Shown here: in pieces, positions 19,695-39,100 of the stretch
How the letters are laid out: each line of letters begins with the position of its first letter
How positions within the stretch are numbered: the first letter of the stretch is position 1
Assembly (NCBI RefSeq): GCF_000002985.6
Contig: NC_003284.9
Span: forward strand, 5,952,001 to 6,016,000
Reading direction: 5' to 3'
DNA length: 64,000 nt
Source of the DNA: Caenorhabditis elegans
Taxonomy: Eukaryota > Nematoda > Chromadorea > Rhabditida > Rhabditidae
Notes under the pieces: generated by a model
What the model was told of the DNA's origin: nothing
Seen by the model: the letters and a program-made list of their open reading frames with translations, nothing else
Databases searched by the model: none
Position numbers and translations under genes: made by a program

Positions 19695-22600
19695 TTAGGT
19701 CATCAGTTTGACGTATGAGTTGTAGTTTGAAACGTCTCTCTTCAGGATCTCACGAACTGGTCCCATGACACGTTCGAAGCGGTTACGATCCAGCTTGATG
19801 CACTTGAGATGGGTTTTGGCAACAACGGTGGCGGCACGTGGGCGGTCGAGAAGAAGAGCGATTTCTCCTGAAATTGTGACATTGAAATAAAGCTTTCATT
19901 CAGGCGTCGACAAGGGTCGCGACCCACGCCTACTGATTAGTGCGGTTCAAAAATCAAAACGTGTCGGGCTCTGGTGCAAACACCAGGGTTTTGATTTAAC
20001 ACCAAAATGCAAAGCGACGTCATTCCCTGAAACCGCGCCTGCATTTCATGAAAAGCCTACATTGATATATGAAGTGTCACAAAAATCTTGTCTAGAGTTA
20101 TATTTCAATAAAAAAAATGTTTGCATTTATTGAATCACCCGCATATTGCCAAATACAATTAGTTTTTTGATCTTTCCATGTTTGTTCATTTTTTTTCCAA
20201 TTTTTCTCTTTTTTTCTGATTATTGCTCACCGAAATAGTCCGACATTCCAAGATGTCCGACAACGTCGAATGGTGCGTCGTCGCTTCTCTTCTGCAACAC
20301 ATTGGCTTCTCCCTCGAGAATGATGAAGAATTCGTCTCCGGGTTGTCCTTGCTCGACGACATGAGTTCCTGGCTCGAAGTCGCATCTCTCAAGAGCATCA
20401 GCCACGTTAGCGCGCTCCCACTGGTCGAGATCGGCTGAAAGATGATTGATGAGTCTCGGCTTAAGTTCATTTTTCTTCTCTGGTTCTTCAATTTACTTAC
20501 CCAAGATTTGAACCTTGGAGAGGAACTCGTCATACATCTTTCTCTTCTTTGTTACTGATCCCATCAAGATACGACGGTAGGTGAGACGGTCGATGGCCCA
20601 CAATTTCACGTCGGTCTGGAAGAAAATATATAAAATGAATTTGAGTGGCATTTTGCCACCTTGGCAATGACGGTTGCAGCACGTGGAGTTCCATAGATCA
20701 AAGCAAGTTCTCCAAATGATCCACCCTCGTTGATGGTGAGAACGTACTCGTGATTGACGTAGACATCAACGGTCTTAAATATGAAAGTACGGATAAGCTC
20801 TTAGAGAGAAGCAACTCACTCCCTTATCAATAACATAGAAGTTATCTCCTTCTTCTCCCTGTTCGATGATGGTCTCTCCAGCAGACTTCTCAACTGGGAA
20901 CATGGCATCGTACATGGTTTTTTGCTCATCCTCCTAAAAACCAAAAAATTGAATAAAAATTTAATGTTATTAGAAATTTTTTTGGGAATTTATTCACCTC
21001 CAAATGAGCAAAGAGCAAGTTCTTCCTCATGGCTGACTCAAGCGACCTTCTTGTAGCATCATCCTTTGGAATCACAACCTTCTTGTACTCGGTATCGTCC
21101 TCCTTGATTGGTTCGGCAGAGATTCCGGTTCTGCGTCCACCTGATCTCTTTGGTGGCTCCACAATGATGTCGTCATCATCAGCAGCGTCCGGATTTCCTC
21201 CTTCCTGAAATGTTAAGATTTGATAAGGAAAGTTTGAAAATAAAAGATGTGCAAAATAACAAACCATTTTGGAATTTTCCTGTTTCAGTTAGTTCAGCGA
21301 CGGAAAAAATGAATGAAAAATCAAAATATAAAATGACCAGAACCAGTTCAGTCAATTACTGACCCTCTGCTATTTTTTTTTTGTTTCGACAAAACGTTAA
21401 CCTTGAGGTTGGAAATTGTAAATCGGGAATCGTATTAAGTGGGCCACCAGGTAATGTAAATTATGTTACGCCGCAAACTTACTTGTTTCTGTTTAGCAAC
21501 AGGGCAACCGTCTCCGCCTGTCTATTTGCGCAATAAAAACAACACAGCAGAAAGTAAATACACCCACTCGCTCACTCACCCGGTACATGTTCAACTCCAT
21601 TTTTAAGGTGTGAACCACTGAATTGAAAATGGATTGGAAGAATTTTTCAATGGAAAGAAGCAAGAAGAAAAACGCAAGGAAATATGAAGTGCGGTGCACA
21701 CTGAGCCAATCTATCGCCGAGCGAGCTGCCGCGCCGTCTAATGTGCTTCAAATGCGTACTCGTAGCTCTCGCAAGTCTCTTCGTCCTACAATTTTGCTAG
21801 TGCTCCATCAAGGTTCCAGCGCTTCCCCTTTTTTCATTTCATTCCACGCCGCTCATCATTCATCCGTCGTGACTGAGATTCGATCATACTAGCAGACACC
21901 TGGTTACTTTTGTTTCTGTTGTGCAAAACAATTTCTTATTTTTGAGGTCTCCCTTTATTTTTGTTTTTTTTTATTTCTAGAAGTTTGCAGAATCCGTTTA
22001 AAATTGCCTAAAAAGATCAGGTTTTGAACAGTTCAAATTTCTAACTTGATTTTTTCAAGAAATTTTATTAAATGTGATGTTTGAAAACATAGAAGCCATT
22101 CTAATCAGAGAATTAATTCGAACTACGCATGAAATCCAAAAATCCATAAGAAAAAAGTGATTATCCTCTCAAAAAACTATCACCTTAGGCTTTGGAGTCT
22201 TTGCGTTTTTTGTGGCGCCCACAGATTGCGAGTTTCGTCGGTTGCTCAATTGCTGCCCCATCACATTCCTTGGTGGTGATACTCTGACAATATTGATTAA
22301 TAACTTGGTTAAAAGAATAAGAAAAAGTCTATGTAGGTGAAAAAAGAGGAATGTAACGGCAATTTTCTAAGAAGCAGATGTTTTGGAATAAAACATATCC
22401 ATGGAAACCAGAGTTGTGGTGAGCAGTCAAATAAATATTTGAAAAAACAAACACTATGACTATTGTAAATGAAGGAACACGTCAGGAGGCAAATAAGGCA
22501 ATTGTGTGTGCGTCGAACTTTCAACTACAACAACTATGACAAAACATTGAGTAGTATGTTGTAGTTGGAGGTAGAATGAGAAGGCTAAAAACAAGACGAA

Positions 22601-25600: not shown

Positions 25601-25824
25601 TTGTTCGTTGAGTTTTTCAAAATGATCCTTCAAGAAGAGAACCGGGTTGTCGGGTTTGTGTATGCACAGAACAACTGGAAAAATCGTATTCTTACTTTCG
25701 TGTTATTATTTTGCTAGATTTTCAAAAACTCACCAATTGCTTCTTTGACAAGCTGCTGAATGTTGTGTCGTTGCACATAGGCCTGGCATTGTGCCAACTG
25801 ATCCTCTTCGTTTCCACCCGACAT
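19695..25824 (-). CDS. kin-2: cAMP-dependent protein kinase type I regulatory subunit KIN-2
   Basis: Eight exons join to 366 residues: 25824-25734, 25674-25592, 21204-20998, 20933-20820, 20773-20660, 20615-20501, 20434-20231 and 19867-19695. Exons 1-2 encode the dimerisation/docking domain ([20 protein letters not shown], then [16 protein letters not shown]), which pairs subunits and binds anchoring proteins. Exon 3 carries the inhibitor site RRTGIS (about residues 82-87). Gly in place of a phosphorylatable Ser makes it a pseudosubstrate, so this is a type I subunit. Two cyclic-nucleotide domains follow, each with a phosphate-binding cassette: [16 protein letters not shown] and [17 protein letters not shown]. 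The protein holds the PKA catalytic subunit inactive until cAMP binds. The frame stays open upstream of the ATG to an acceptor at 25839-25841, so an upstream exon could add residues (GDIVF before MSGG); otherwise this is a trans-splice site. One donor is GTGGCA (20659-20654), which is unusual. Confidence 0.95.
21580..21600 (-). CDS. kin-2: Candidate kin-2 micro first exon (MELNMYR)
   Basis: A 21-bp exon, ATG to CGG, is followed by a perfect GTGAGT donor and ends in phase 0, as needed to join kin-2 exon 3 at 21204. It would give a regulatory subunit without the dimerisation/docking domain but with the pseudosubstrate site and both cAMP domains. The region just upstream is less AT-rich and could be an internal promoter. 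It is short enough to arise by chance. Confidence 0.45.
22184..22261 (-). CDS. kin-2: Candidate kin-2 alternative first exon with N-myristoylation signal
   Basis: An ATG at 22261 opens 26 codons starting [13 protein letters not shown] and ending in KTPKPK, then the donor GTGATA in phase 0, matching kin-2 exon 3 at 21204. The start fits the N-myristoyltransferase consensus (Gly2, small residue Ser6, basic residues at 8 and 9). The exon has a polybasic character throughout, a common membrane-holding partner of myristate. The product would keep the RRTGIS inhibitor site and both cAMP domains but replace the dimerisation/docking domain. The sequence shows frame, donor and phase; membrane targeting is inference. 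Confidence 0.65.
24082..24104. repeat. (TA)n dinucleotide repeat
   Basis: About 11 uninterrupted TA units in the large kin-2 intron. Confidence 0.85.
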
Positions 25825-26094
25825 AAAAACAATGTCACCTGAATAATTGTTCATAATTTTCAGTCATTTCTTGTTTTAAACAAACAAAAGAGACAAAAAT
25901 GCGAGAAAAATAGCAGAAAACACACGTTTGAAATGAGATGAAAACTTGGTGGGGAAGGTAACAGACTTTTGACGGGGGATGCCGCGGAAAAGAGCGAGAT
26001 GAGCGGTTACCGAATGAATGCTGATACACCCGCCAGTGTACAACATTTTGGAAAATCTTGGCACACAGCCTTCCCAGTAGATCAAAGCAGAATT

Positions 26095-33191: not shown

Positions 33192-36100
33192 ATGGCAATG
33201 CAAAAACAGCAGCTCACGGTACGTGGTTTTGATTTTGAAAAGTAGAAAGGCAATTTGTAATGCTGGTCAGAAATAAATACAAAAAATTTGAAAACTGAAG
33301 CAGTTTTGTGAGACCGTGAATATATGAAAATTTGGAAAGTTCATTCCATAGAGAAGTATTTTTAATGTTAGTTTGTTTTTGCAATAATGCATATTTAATG
33401 ACGAAAATTTTTTAAAAATAAATTCAAAACCTCTAGACTTAGAATTCTCATATAATGAAACAAATAAAATTTAATTATAAATTCTTCTAAAAAATTTACA
33501 AAAATTTGGAAAATCACGTTTGGTTTTTAAGCTTTCATATAAAAACTTTAAATGGTGGAGTGCGACCATTGAAAAATTTTATAAAAAATCGTTCCTACTG
33601 AAATCACAAAATAGCATAATAAAACGCTCCAAAAAAAACCGCATATGTTTTATTTCGAGATGAAAAGTGATGAAAACAAATAAAACAATTTAACATTTTC
33701 AATAACTTTTTGGATAAATATTATTATGATGTTGTTCATATAAGCACGCTAGTAACTTTTTAAAATAATTTACTATTTGACCGCGCCATAAAATAACCAA
33801 ACTTTGTAGAGTTTTTCTACTTTGTCCTTCAAAGTCACTTTGTTTGCAAAGTTGGCAAAAATCAAAAGCGGTAAAAAATTTCAGCAATTCTTATCTTCTT
33901 ATCTTATCACTATCAAACTTTATCAATTCGTGTGTCGTATCCGGCTCAAATTTGCAACAAACTTTACCCACTTTGATTCCTAGCATAATTTTTTTTTCCT
34001 GGGGAATGTGTGCTAGTCGGGTTGTCATTAGCAATGTAACATGTGTCTAGAATATCTGAACGCAACAATATCAAACGACGAAAATACGAACATTGTGACT
34101 AGAGCCGTGATTTGTTTCGCAATTCTTAAAAGTCAGACAAAGAGATGTTTTTGTTGAAAAAGAAAACAACAACGTCATTGAAAACAAAGCCAGAGATCTT
34201 TAGATGTCAAGGATTCCAAAAGTTGACGCTTTGAGATTATAAACCGTAAATGTTTTTTTTTGTAAAAAGCCCAGAGAAATTGAAAATCAGGAATTCGATT
34301 TCAATGAGACTGATGTAATTCGAAACTATCTAGTTTTTGTTTACTCTCCAACACAGAAATTTGGAAATTGGAATCTGTTTTTGACGAGTCATTGTATTTT
34401 TTTTCTTTTTGACTTCATTTCAGAGAACCTAAAATTTCTTCCCGCAATCACCAGGAAATGCCTTAGACATCTAATCACGTTAACCACTATTTTTGTTTTC
34501 GAGATTACAAGCCTTTTTTTTACTGCGCCACTATTTTCTTTTCCTATTTTCCAATCAACTTTTTTTTTTATAACTATGTGTACACATTATGTAAAGCTAC
34601 GAAAAACCAGAGCAATTTGTGGTCATCTATTGAAAAAGAAAACGTTTTTTTCTTGCTTCAGCCAAATTTTTTTCATGTTCGTAGGCAAAAGCATATATAC
34701 TTAAAGGTCGGAGTTGTACTAGTAGAGGACATAACGTTGTCAAAAAGAAAATGAGTGAAATTATTTATTGAACAGAAGTACTATGCATTGTTAAAGAGGA
34801 ATGTACGGTGCAATTTTAGAAAGAAAAATCTAGACAGATTCGAAACAGGAAATGATTCAACTAATTACTGTTTGAGGCAAAGGTTTAAAAAAATTATACA
34901 CCGTATAAATTTATAGTTTAGCAAATTACAGGTTGTGGTACGAGTACGGCCACTGAACTCTGGAGAAAAGTCTCGTAAAGCTTTTCAATGTGTGTTTCCA
35001 TTGGATAAAAAGGTACCTCGAACATCACTTTCAAAAAAATTGAATTTATTTTCTTTCAAGCGAGTACTACTTGTGGATCCCGAAAAGTTTGAAAACAACA
35101 TTCTCCGACAAAACCGACAACATGAACGAAAGTTCGAGTTTGATGCATCATTTGGAGCAACATCTAATCAGGTTTTGGGATAAGAATTCTTGAAATTGTG
35201 TACTTTGTTTTCTAGGAGGACGTGCACGAAACAACAACTGGTCCTATTATCGACTCAGTTGTTGAAGGGTTCAATGCCACTGTTTTTGCATATGGTGCTA
35301 CTGGGTCCGGCAAGACGTTTACTATGATTGGAACAAAAGACAGGCCAGGATTGATGACGTTGATGACAAAAACCTTGTATGAGAAATTGGATAATCAATA
35401 TCAAGTGTTGTTATCCTATATGGTGAGGATAGGGAATATTCAAAAAAAGTCATAAGCATTGGCTTTTATTTATAAATTCTATATATTCAAACAAACCATT
35501 TTTAAATTTCTAGACATGCCACATTTGAAAACATATGTTTCCATTAGGTTACGAAAAAAGAATTTCAAAACTCAACTCCATCTTCACACAATTCAACTTA
35601 AACTTAGTTAAAACCGTTAGGCCCTTTTGGTCATTCTTATTTAAAATTGTTTGTGAAGAACTATTAGATCGCAACTTTGATTGCTCATCTGTGAAAAAAC
35701 AAAGAGAAATAAGAAAAAGAAGAAAAACTACAGTAATTTAAATGTTCACAAAAAATCATAAAAATGAGTGATACTCGTGACGGGACCATTTCGCATACAC
35801 GTCCCTTAACAATACTCTACCGTTGTACACTTATTATTCAGGAAATCTACAACGAAATAATCAGAGATCTTCTAAATCCTAGTGGAGGCGACTTGGAACT
35901 ATTAGAAGATGAGCGTGGAAACATCCGAGTACCCGGTTTGTCCTCAGTAAAAGCACCAAATCTAACCCGAGTACGTGGTCAATTTTTCCGTGATTGAAAA
36001 ACGCAGAGAGCCGCTTTCAAGTGGCAATCTTGCGTTTCACAGCTTCACATTAATTCTCTTACAAATTTCCCGCATTTTGTAGATCATGCAAATATTGCAA

Positions 36101-39100
36101 GAAGGCAATCTACGACGCACTCAGGAAGCGACGATGGCGAATAAAACAAGCTCAAGGAGTCACGCGTTGCTTCAGGCAAGATTCAATCTTGGGGATACAC
36201 TCCCTGCTCTTTGAGTACACGTAGTTGATCTTTGTGTTTTTTCGAGACATTTTGAGACATAAGATAGCTTTAAAAACATTTTCAGTAGAAGAGATTGAAC
36301 GTATGCCTGATTTTTTTGACAATAAAAGAAAATAAATAATTTTTAGGTGATGATCGTCAAAAATCAATCTCTTCACAGTAAACTTTTCATGATAGATCTA
36401 GCAGGCTCCGAGCGAGCTTCCAACACCCAAGTAGGTCCCAATTCCATTTTCTCCATTTTCATAAAAATCACTTAGAATCGTGGAATCCGGTTGAAAGAGG
36501 GAGCTGCAATAAATCGCTCACTGTTGGCACTTGGGAATGTCATTAACTCGTTGGCTTCGAGTGAGTTAAGAGGCTTTCTGGAAAAGTGATTTCAAGAAGT
36601 GTAGTCATCAATTAATTCTTGGAAAAAATAAAGCTGTTTGATGTGACTTGCTTTTCAGAGACTACCAAATTTGTGAACTATCGGGATAGCAAATTGACAA
36701 GACTTTTGAAGGATTCGCTTGGTTGGTTTTTGACTACATGAACACATAACGAAACGAGCAAATAATTTATATTTTAGGAGGGACGGCGAAAACATGCATG
36801 ATAGCTCACGTCACCCCATCAAGTTCTAATTTTGAAGAGACATATAACACACTGATGTATGCATCAAGAGCAATGAACATTACCAATAAAGTAACGTTAA
36901 CGTGTTAAATAGGAACACAGTTTTTATTTTTAGCCAATGCGGAATCGGCCAGCTTCCGCCGATCAAGTTTATGCAGAGGCGATGAATGCGATCAGGAAGG
37001 AAGTTGGATCGCAGATTAAGAATTCGTCATCAATTACCGGATGTGAGAAAATTTTTTTGAATCCAAATAGTGATCCATAATGAAAAAAACAAATACTTTA
37101 TTTGCTTCAAACACAAAACACTACTAAACCTCAGGCTACAAACATAGATTCCAAGCGGTTTTAAAAGTTGGCAAAATATTTTGTCCACTACACTTATCAT
37201 AATCCAAAACGACGGAATACCATATTGAAACACTCAAAAAAATTTTTAGATTTTTCAAAATTTTCAGTCAACGTTTTGGTGAATAGCCAACATTTAAAAA
37301 AAGAAGAGATTTTAAGGAAATCCAGAGAAATTTTGCATGGTCTGAACCTTACACATAATGTTAAAAAAAAATATTGAAACAAAATTATAGTAAAAAACCG
37401 TGAAAAAAACATTCTTTCTGGTCGACTTTCAAAATTTGGAGTGGAAAAACTGAGTAATTGCCACTTTTTGAGCGTAAATAACAATTTTCGAATTTTTTTT
37501 AGAAAAGTTTTACTATGATATCTGGTCACTTTGGAACCATTGAAGTACTTTAAGCACTTGTCTCACGGGGTCTACTCCATTTTTAAATTTCCAATTCAAG
37601 TTGAAAGTGTTCTTTTGAATTTGAATAGAACGCGATTACATTTTTTGTTGCTTTTCAAAGTTAAAACTACATTTTAAAGAAAATTATAAAATAGACAATT
37701 TGTTTGAAATGTGTAAACGGTTTGAATCATTGCTGCTGCTTTTTCAGTAAATAAAAAACAAAAAAAAACTGAACTAAGAAACCGCGAGACAAAATCGGTC
37801 TGGCCGTAGAGACTCAAGCCTCAAAGACAAAAAAAATAAGTAAATTTAGTAGGAATGCGTAGAAGTACTTCTAAAACTTTCTAACACTTTTATACAATTG
37901 AATTTCAGTGGCAGCAAGAAGCAGTGTGCAAGAAAGGAGCAGCAGCCGTAACCGTCCAAAATCTATCTCACGGAATAGCAGCCTAACGAGAGCGGCTCAA
38001 CCGATGCCGGTCAGTTGAAAAAAAAAACACAGAGACATACATCATAAATTAGTTTCATTTTTCAGATAGACCGTGGGCGTGGAGGATCACTTTTCACACA
38101 GCTCAAGGAGCAATACATGACATTGTCGGATAAACAAAAGCGATTGAGGTAATTTGAGGTAAAAATTAATAATGGAATAATTGAAAAGTTACAGGGAGAA
38201 ATTGATGGCTACAAATCAAGAAGCCTACTCATTAGAAATGTCTTTAATTTCTAAAAATGCAATAATTAATGCTTGGGAGAAGCATCATCACGACAAGACA
38301 GCTGAAAGTATTGAAAGGTTGAAAAAGGATGGAGAACTTCAAGTAAGTGTGTTTATCAGTTGTATCTTGGGACACAATGGGTGCAACAAGAACTTATCAC
38401 TTTGGAAAATTTGATGGGAATTCTTTTTGACTGACTTTCAGTTTTTGATGTTTTTAATGCAAAATCAAAACGAGAAACATAGAAGACAGGTAGTCAACAA
38501 TGCATACCTTTCATTGACACCTTGCATACCTTTCATTGACACCTTGTCATGATCTGAAATAATGTTTCAAGAGAAAACCGGTCGGTGTATATCTTGTTTT
38601 TTCAGCGAGTGCGCCTTGTGGAACTATCTGATCAACGAACTAAAGTGGAGAAGGCACTCCGGAAAGGGGAGGAGAATGCGAGTGGGCTGGAATCTCGAAT
38701 GAGAAGCCTGGCATCCACTAATGAGCAGCGAGAAGTTGTTAAATTGATGGTGAAGATGGCTGAGATAGAAGCACAAAGTGGGCGTTTAGAGTTATTTTTA
38801 GAAACTTATTAAGGTTTTCCGTTTCAGAAATTTCCGCATTGTCGGATCTTGCCATCCGGGGATTGATCATGGATAGAACTGATACATCTATTGCAAAGCT
38901 TCAAAAATATGAAATGGTGGCTGATAAGCTGATCGATGGAAAGCTAGACGGTAAGATTGCGATAATGCAATTTAAAATTTTTGAGAATTTTTTTTTCACA
39001 AATCGAATAATGTTTAAGACAATGATCGTAAGAAACTTGAAGAAGAATACCGAGTGATCAAAAATCAGTTCCATTATCATCTGCTCCCACTGAAAAACAT

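Follow-up and report, generated by a model that had tools for sequence, protein, structure and literature searches.

A candidate alternative first exon of C. elegans kin-2 predicted to encode a myristoylated PKA regulatory subunit without the dimerization/docking domain

We favor, at slightly better than an even chance, the reading that the large intron of the Caenorhabditis elegans gene kin-2 contains a genuine alternative first coding exon, starting MGQQ, and that this exon would give rise to a 334-residue PKA regulatory subunit that lacks the dimerization/docking (D/D) domain, is N-myristoylated and is held at membranes. Judging from the frame, domains, motif and charge read in the DNA, the exon would be transcribed, and its product lipidated, located at membranes and of consequence for PKA. 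The supporting observations are an open frame with a phase-0 donor leading into the common exons, the rarity of comparable frames in simulated introns when donor strength is required (1 in 1000), an upstream TTGTCAGAG site from which the exon can serve only as a first coding exon, and D/D-less kin-2 isoforms that published passages already mention. Below, we describe the locus, the domains that the MGQQ form would keep and lose, its N-terminus, and the alternatives to this reading.

The kin-2 locus and its candidate first exons

In C. elegans, kin-2 (R07E4.6) is the single gene for a PKA regulatory subunit. It lies on the minus strand of the window (the whole stretch of 64,000 nucleotides that was analyzed, positions 5,952,001-6,016,000 of contig C6), whose contig we take to be chromosome X. 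Its exons were mapped by reading the sequence, and none of the kin-2 isoforms contained an internal stop on translation. The features are:

25734..25854, minus strand: start of the long form and first D/D exon; ATG 25854 gives 376 aa, ATG 25824 gives 366 aa
25592..25674, minus strand: second D/D exon; the RIIa domain covers residues 30-67 of the 376-aa form
22262..22283, minus strand: likely 5' UTR after the candidate splice acceptor ATTGTCAG/AG, the use of which is presumed
22184..22261, minus strand: candidate alternative first coding exon (MGQQ), read and translated, ending in phase 0
22182..22183, minus strand: its 5' splice donor, AAG/GTGATA, weak, with T at +5 and A at +6
21580..21600, minus strand: second short alternative first coding exon, MELNMYR/gtgagtg, phase 0, strong donor of 7.17 bits
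21483..21521, minus strand: candidate in-frame internal exon of 39 nt (13 residues), phase 0 at both ends
20998..21204, minus strand: first common exon, with an acidic linker and the RRTGIS inhibitor site
19695..20933, minus strand: common exons E4-E8 with two cAMP-binding domains, from mapping and domain searches (limits 20933-20820, 20773-20660, 20615-20501, 20434-20231 and 19867-19695)

Four features go beyond the original prediction, which concerned the MGQQ exon: the short MELNMYR first exon, the candidate cassette at 21521-21483, a start-stop AUG that overlaps the MGQQ start codon, and an RRNS site.

The published kin-2a cloning primers match the window letter for letter, both at the start (25824) and at the end of the gene, and the 1101-bp kin-2a cDNA that others cloned with a primer beginning at the ATG at 25824, according to the passage that describes it, is the size of the 366-aa form. 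An in-frame ATG lies upstream (25854-25825, minus strand; MNNYSGDIVF) and yields the 376-aa long form, in which RRTGI starts at residue 92, so that the 376-aa start would explain the residue numbering of ce179, given in a published passage as R92C in the inhibitory domain of kin-2. The exon at 21204 opens GAAGGAGG and carries GGRRTGIS. Immediately before it, an open frame of 21 residues (21267-21205, minus strand) continues across the 3' splice site to reach EGGNPD in the common exon, and a retained intron would keep the frame. Elsewhere in the window, frames lying in pieces at 35324-36430 on the plus strand contain MIGTKDRPG and a stretch of 12 residues, and resemble parts of a kinesin motor.

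The MGQQ exon comprises 78 nt, or 26 codons, from ATG-GGG to AAG/GTGATA. On direct translation, the exon frame, the ATG-Gly start and the join to 21204 that had been proposed for it were all borne out: phase 0 is the exact phase for entering the RRTGIS exon, and the in-frame product is 334 aa long. The donor had been called proper, and a phase-0 GT is indeed present, but it is weak, scoring 2.56 bits on a donor matrix that gives 0.41 to 7.17 bits for the nine other kin-2 donors, two of which fall below it (E4, 2.48; E5, 0.41). When the window's own assembly (100.3 Mb, 7 contigs) was searched with these 26 residues and an E limit of 10, the sole match among the best candidates scored was this place, with no second copy of the exon found among them, and a 95-aa query gave two matches among the best candidates scored, namely the MGQQ exon and the next kin-2 exon. 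The PDB contained no match to the 26-residue peptide within an E limit of 10, although so short a query makes for a search of low power, and a comparison of the 334-aa form with bacterial and archaeal genomes, uninformative on Caenorhabditis, gave 71 pattern matches, 0 of them confirmed.

At its 5' end, the candidate acceptor ATTGTCAG ends at 22284 and carries a G at -5, which is rare at acceptors. We considered five AG acceptors upstream of the MGQQ ATG, in each case carrying on the frame of the D/D exons in phase 0. A stop follows from 22328, 22283, 22281 and 22268, while from 22303 (TAACCAAG) the frame stays open and adds 14 residues before MGQQ. Because the stop follows both TTGTCAGAG acceptors (22283 and 22281), the MGQQ exon would work from that site only as a first coding exon. 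MGQQ may instead be an internal exon entered via 22303, or an untranslated exon may lie farther upstream; as the acceptor at 22303 looks poor, the internal-exon reading is less preferred than that of a first coding exon. A minimal AUG-UGA at 22266-22261 (minus strand) shares its final base with the A of the main MGQQ AUG, the segment 22269-22256 (minus strand) reading GGAATGTGATGGGG and thus carrying the AUG-UGA over the MGQQ start codon. A scanning ribosome would reach the AUG-UGA first, and translation of the MGQQ form may therefore drop or be regulated.

Domains kept and lost, and published precedents

The original prediction that the dimerization/docking domain would be lost was upheld by the Pfam searches: of the forms compared, RIIa (PF02197, the D/D domain) was present in the 376-aa form only (E 1.5e-15), and neither the MGQQ nor the MELN form gave a match to it at E up to 0.01. 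By contrast, cNMP_binding (PF00027) was present in the 376-aa, MGQQ and MELN forms, in two stretches in the MGQQ form (E 3.3e-39), where the RRTGI inhibitor site (RRxG) stands at residue 50. Among PDB entries, the long form was most similar to 6no7, a type I-alpha regulatory subunit (E 4.3e-138, residues 14-374). Hence the MGQQ form has two features of a type I PKA regulatory subunit, the inhibitor site and the cAMP domains, but not the third, the D/D domain; kin-2 is, by its predicted products, a type I regulatory subunit gene, and the MGQQ isoform is a predicted variant without the D/D domain. Since RRTGIS and both cAMP domains are kept, the MGQQ form is predicted to bind the catalytic subunit (C) and, by analogy, should make R-C heterodimers, whereas its predicted sequence could not dock on AKAPs, or dimerize, through a D/D domain.

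In the mechanism that we propose, the MGQQ exon would have its own start inside the large kin-2 intron, and its product (334 aa, or 347 aa with the 39-nt cassette) would bind one catalytic subunit via RRTGIS, to be released from the heterodimer by cAMP as expected from established knowledge of D/D-less regulatory subunits. Met1 would be removed and Gly2 N-myristoylated, and the myristate, together with six basic residues and no acidic ones, would hold the protein weakly at membranes.

D/D-less kin-2 isoforms are already known. A review passage mentions three isoforms, some without the D/D domain, which implies no tetramer and no AKAP binding (PMC9692727), and the passages on kin-2 in PMC9692727, PMC3771449 and PMC5282578 credit such isoforms to Pastok et al. 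2013 (Cell Signal 25:168). These isoforms share with the MGQQ form both the gene and the loss of the D/D domain. The passage in PMC3771449 speaks of isoforms containing or lacking domains needed to dock to AKAPs and to the C-subunit, a wording under which certain kin-2 isoforms might deviate from the usual binding of the catalytic subunit. The review passages on kin-2 isoforms do not give the N-terminus of any D/D-less form, so that the MGQQ exon may or may not belong to one of the published isoforms. A myristoylated kin-2 isoform was not found among the literature matches listed (for example, the best 20 of 928), and Pastok et al. 2013 may describe one, so that the lipid part is perhaps also in print. 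A possible novelty is that an animal would have a regulatory-subunit isoform carrying myristate, here predicted from its gene; the literature matches listed describe none. We assume that the current gene annotation holds several kin-2 isoforms, perhaps including the MGQQ form.

Other systems offer partial parallels. PKAr1 of Toxoplasma gondii resembles the MGQQ form in combining an apparent lack of the D/D domain with a Gly2 signal: in the passages of PMC6152992 on its placement, it appears to have no N-terminal docking domain and owes its membrane position to an acylation signal at the N-terminus, the first 15 residues suffice to place GFP at the periphery, a G2A change severely reduces placement, and loss of Cys5 and Cys7 (palmitoylation) also spoils its position. 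While PKAr1 has cysteines 5 and 7, the worm exon has none and would rely on basic residues, which keeps the MGQQ form out of the dual-acylation type, so that it would at most work alike; also unlike PKAr1, it would be one isoform among several. Plasmodium PKAr, as a passage of PMC5746546 describes it, is a regulatory subunit without a D/D domain that is thought to form an R-C heterodimer; there, the D/D-less form is the only one described for the gene, and that passage does not mention a basic N-terminus like that of the worm form. Within C. elegans itself, the N'1 isoform of KIN-1 is stated in passages of PMC9692727 and PMC3771449 to be myristoylated through an alternative first exon, a parallel from a PKA subunit of the same animal that is, however, catalytic, whereas KIN-2 is regulatory. 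With D/D-less kin-2, Toxoplasma PKAr1 and KIN-1 N'1, each part of the original idea thus has a precedent.

The N-terminus of the MGQQ form

The start MGQQLSN, with Gly2, Gln3 and Ser6, fits the PROSITE myristoylation pattern G-{EDRKHPFYW}-x-x-[STAGCN]-{P}. On a profile built from 30 known substrate N-termini, the MGQQ peptide scored 2.32, compared to a leave-one-out median of 7.01 for the substrates, 4 of the 30 standing at or below it; the window has 44 other MG frames, none of which reached 2.32. The signal had been called near-ideal, which is too strong in view of its low rank among known substrates, and acceptable is a fair word for it. Overall, the original interpretation fits in the D/D loss, the kept inhibitor site and cAMP domains, and the N-myristoylation pattern, but it overstated the quality of the signal and of the donor. 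The 26 residues of the exon include six basic, zero acidic and zero cysteine residues, and a second membrane signal would consequently be charge and not palmitate. Myristate alone gives weak membrane binding. The peptide is expected to be disordered.

These properties also bear on the strongest competing reading, a real isoform that is not usefully lipid-anchored, namely a cytosolic monomeric regulatory subunit that would serve as a buffer for cAMP or for free catalytic subunit and carry MGQQ as a disordered tail. We consider this unlikely, albeit worth serious attention. The loss of the D/D domain is clear from the predicted protein, and the MELNMYR exon also removes that domain and has no Gly2, so that losing the D/D domain may itself be the point; moreover, the profile score of the MGQQ peptide is low and Gly2 has no cysteine nearby. 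Yet an arbitrary tail would need neither Gly2 and Ser6 nor a run of basic residues, here six, free of acidic ones. We continue to favor a lipid anchor, as the pattern fits, the score of 2.32 lies above those of the 44 other MG frames, and Gly2 has a precedent in Toxoplasma, as far as the published passages go.

A variant compatible with the lipid-anchor reading, which we put forward tentatively and regard as rather unlikely, splices the MGQQ exon to the cassette candidate at 21521-21483. The cassette has an AAATAG acceptor and a GTAAGT donor of 4.88 bits, and fits between either MELNMYR or MGQQ and the common exons, making the MGQQ product 347 aa and the MELN product 328 aa and placing a cysteine at residue 32 of the MGQQ form. 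The donor score and the phase, which is 0 on either side, argue for its use with MGQQ, while the acceptor is not strong by eye and the cassette may serve MELNMYR transcripts only.

Chance, a phosphorylation switch, and what the isoform would mean

We judge it improbable that the MGQQ frame is open merely by chance, or that its start is seldom used, poorly translated and without a function of its own. As a strict control, we counted ATG frames of 15-60 codons that end in a phase-0 donor scoring at least as high as the MGQQ donor. The 4,386-nt intron contained no such frame in sense orientation besides MGQQ, and among 39 such frames on both strands of the window, MGQQ alone carried the myristoylation pattern. 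Second-order Markov copies of the intron contained any strict frame in 319 of 1000 cases and a patterned frame in 1 of 1000, figures that flatter the MGQQ exon, since the pattern was picked after the exon had been pointed out. Upon accepting any GT as donor, a much weaker control, a patterned frame appeared in 68, 74 and 84 of 1000 Markov introns (orders 1, 2 and 3, respectively), while the real intron held 11 frames (1 patterned) and the window 514 (4 patterned). Whereas the any-GT counts speak for chance, the count obtained once donor strength is required speaks against it.

Composition likewise cuts both ways. The GC content of the exon is high for the intron (51% vs 35%), with 5.6% of intron windows as high, which argues against chance. 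The codon usage, scored with only the kin-2 common exons as reference, is not coding-like: the log-odds is -12.1 (-15.2 and -16.1 in the other two frames), a score equalled by 12% of intron 75-mers, compared to +2.0 for the first D/D exon. Along with the weak donor and the AUG-UGA preceding the MGQQ start, this usage is what chance would predict. On the other hand, the passage in PMC9692727 counts three isoforms, some without D/D, which would agree with the three types of first exon that we find in the gene. Weighing the chance tests and GC content against the weak donor and the codon usage, the sequence alone favors a real exon but falls short of proof. Against our favored reading of a genuine, lipid-anchored isoform, we count the weak donor, the G at -5 of the acceptor, the codon log-odds, the 68-84 per 1000 of the any-GT control, the low profile score, the AUG-UGA over the start, the lack of cysteine and the wording on the C-subunit in the passage of PMC3771449.

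The exon also encodes RRNS (Ser11; 22240-22229, minus strand), a PKA consensus that adjoins the possible lipid site. Among the three N-termini compared, each scanned together with the first common exon, RRNS occurs in the MGQQ form only, and in the long and MELN forms the RRTGI inhibitor site is the sole such site in the stretch scanned. A similar layout, in an unrelated protein, is found at the N-terminus of Src, where an RRxS site of the PKA type lies close to the myristate and to basic residues. It is conceivable, though quite improbable, that the exon acts as a myristoyl-electrostatic switch, in which myristate and the basic residues would keep R-C at the membrane, cAMP-freed catalytic subunit would phosphorylate Ser11, the charge would fall and the regulatory subunit would leave the membrane; if true, this would make for an AKAP-independent, self-limiting anchor.

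Because the worm has just one kin-2 gene and its genome is readily edited, the idea of membrane placement is directly testable there. If the MGQQ form is made and myristoylated, C. elegans could place PKA at membranes by the choice of promoter and not by an anchoring protein, an arrangement that, if true, would resemble the acylated regulatory subunit reported, in the passages cited above, for Toxoplasma.
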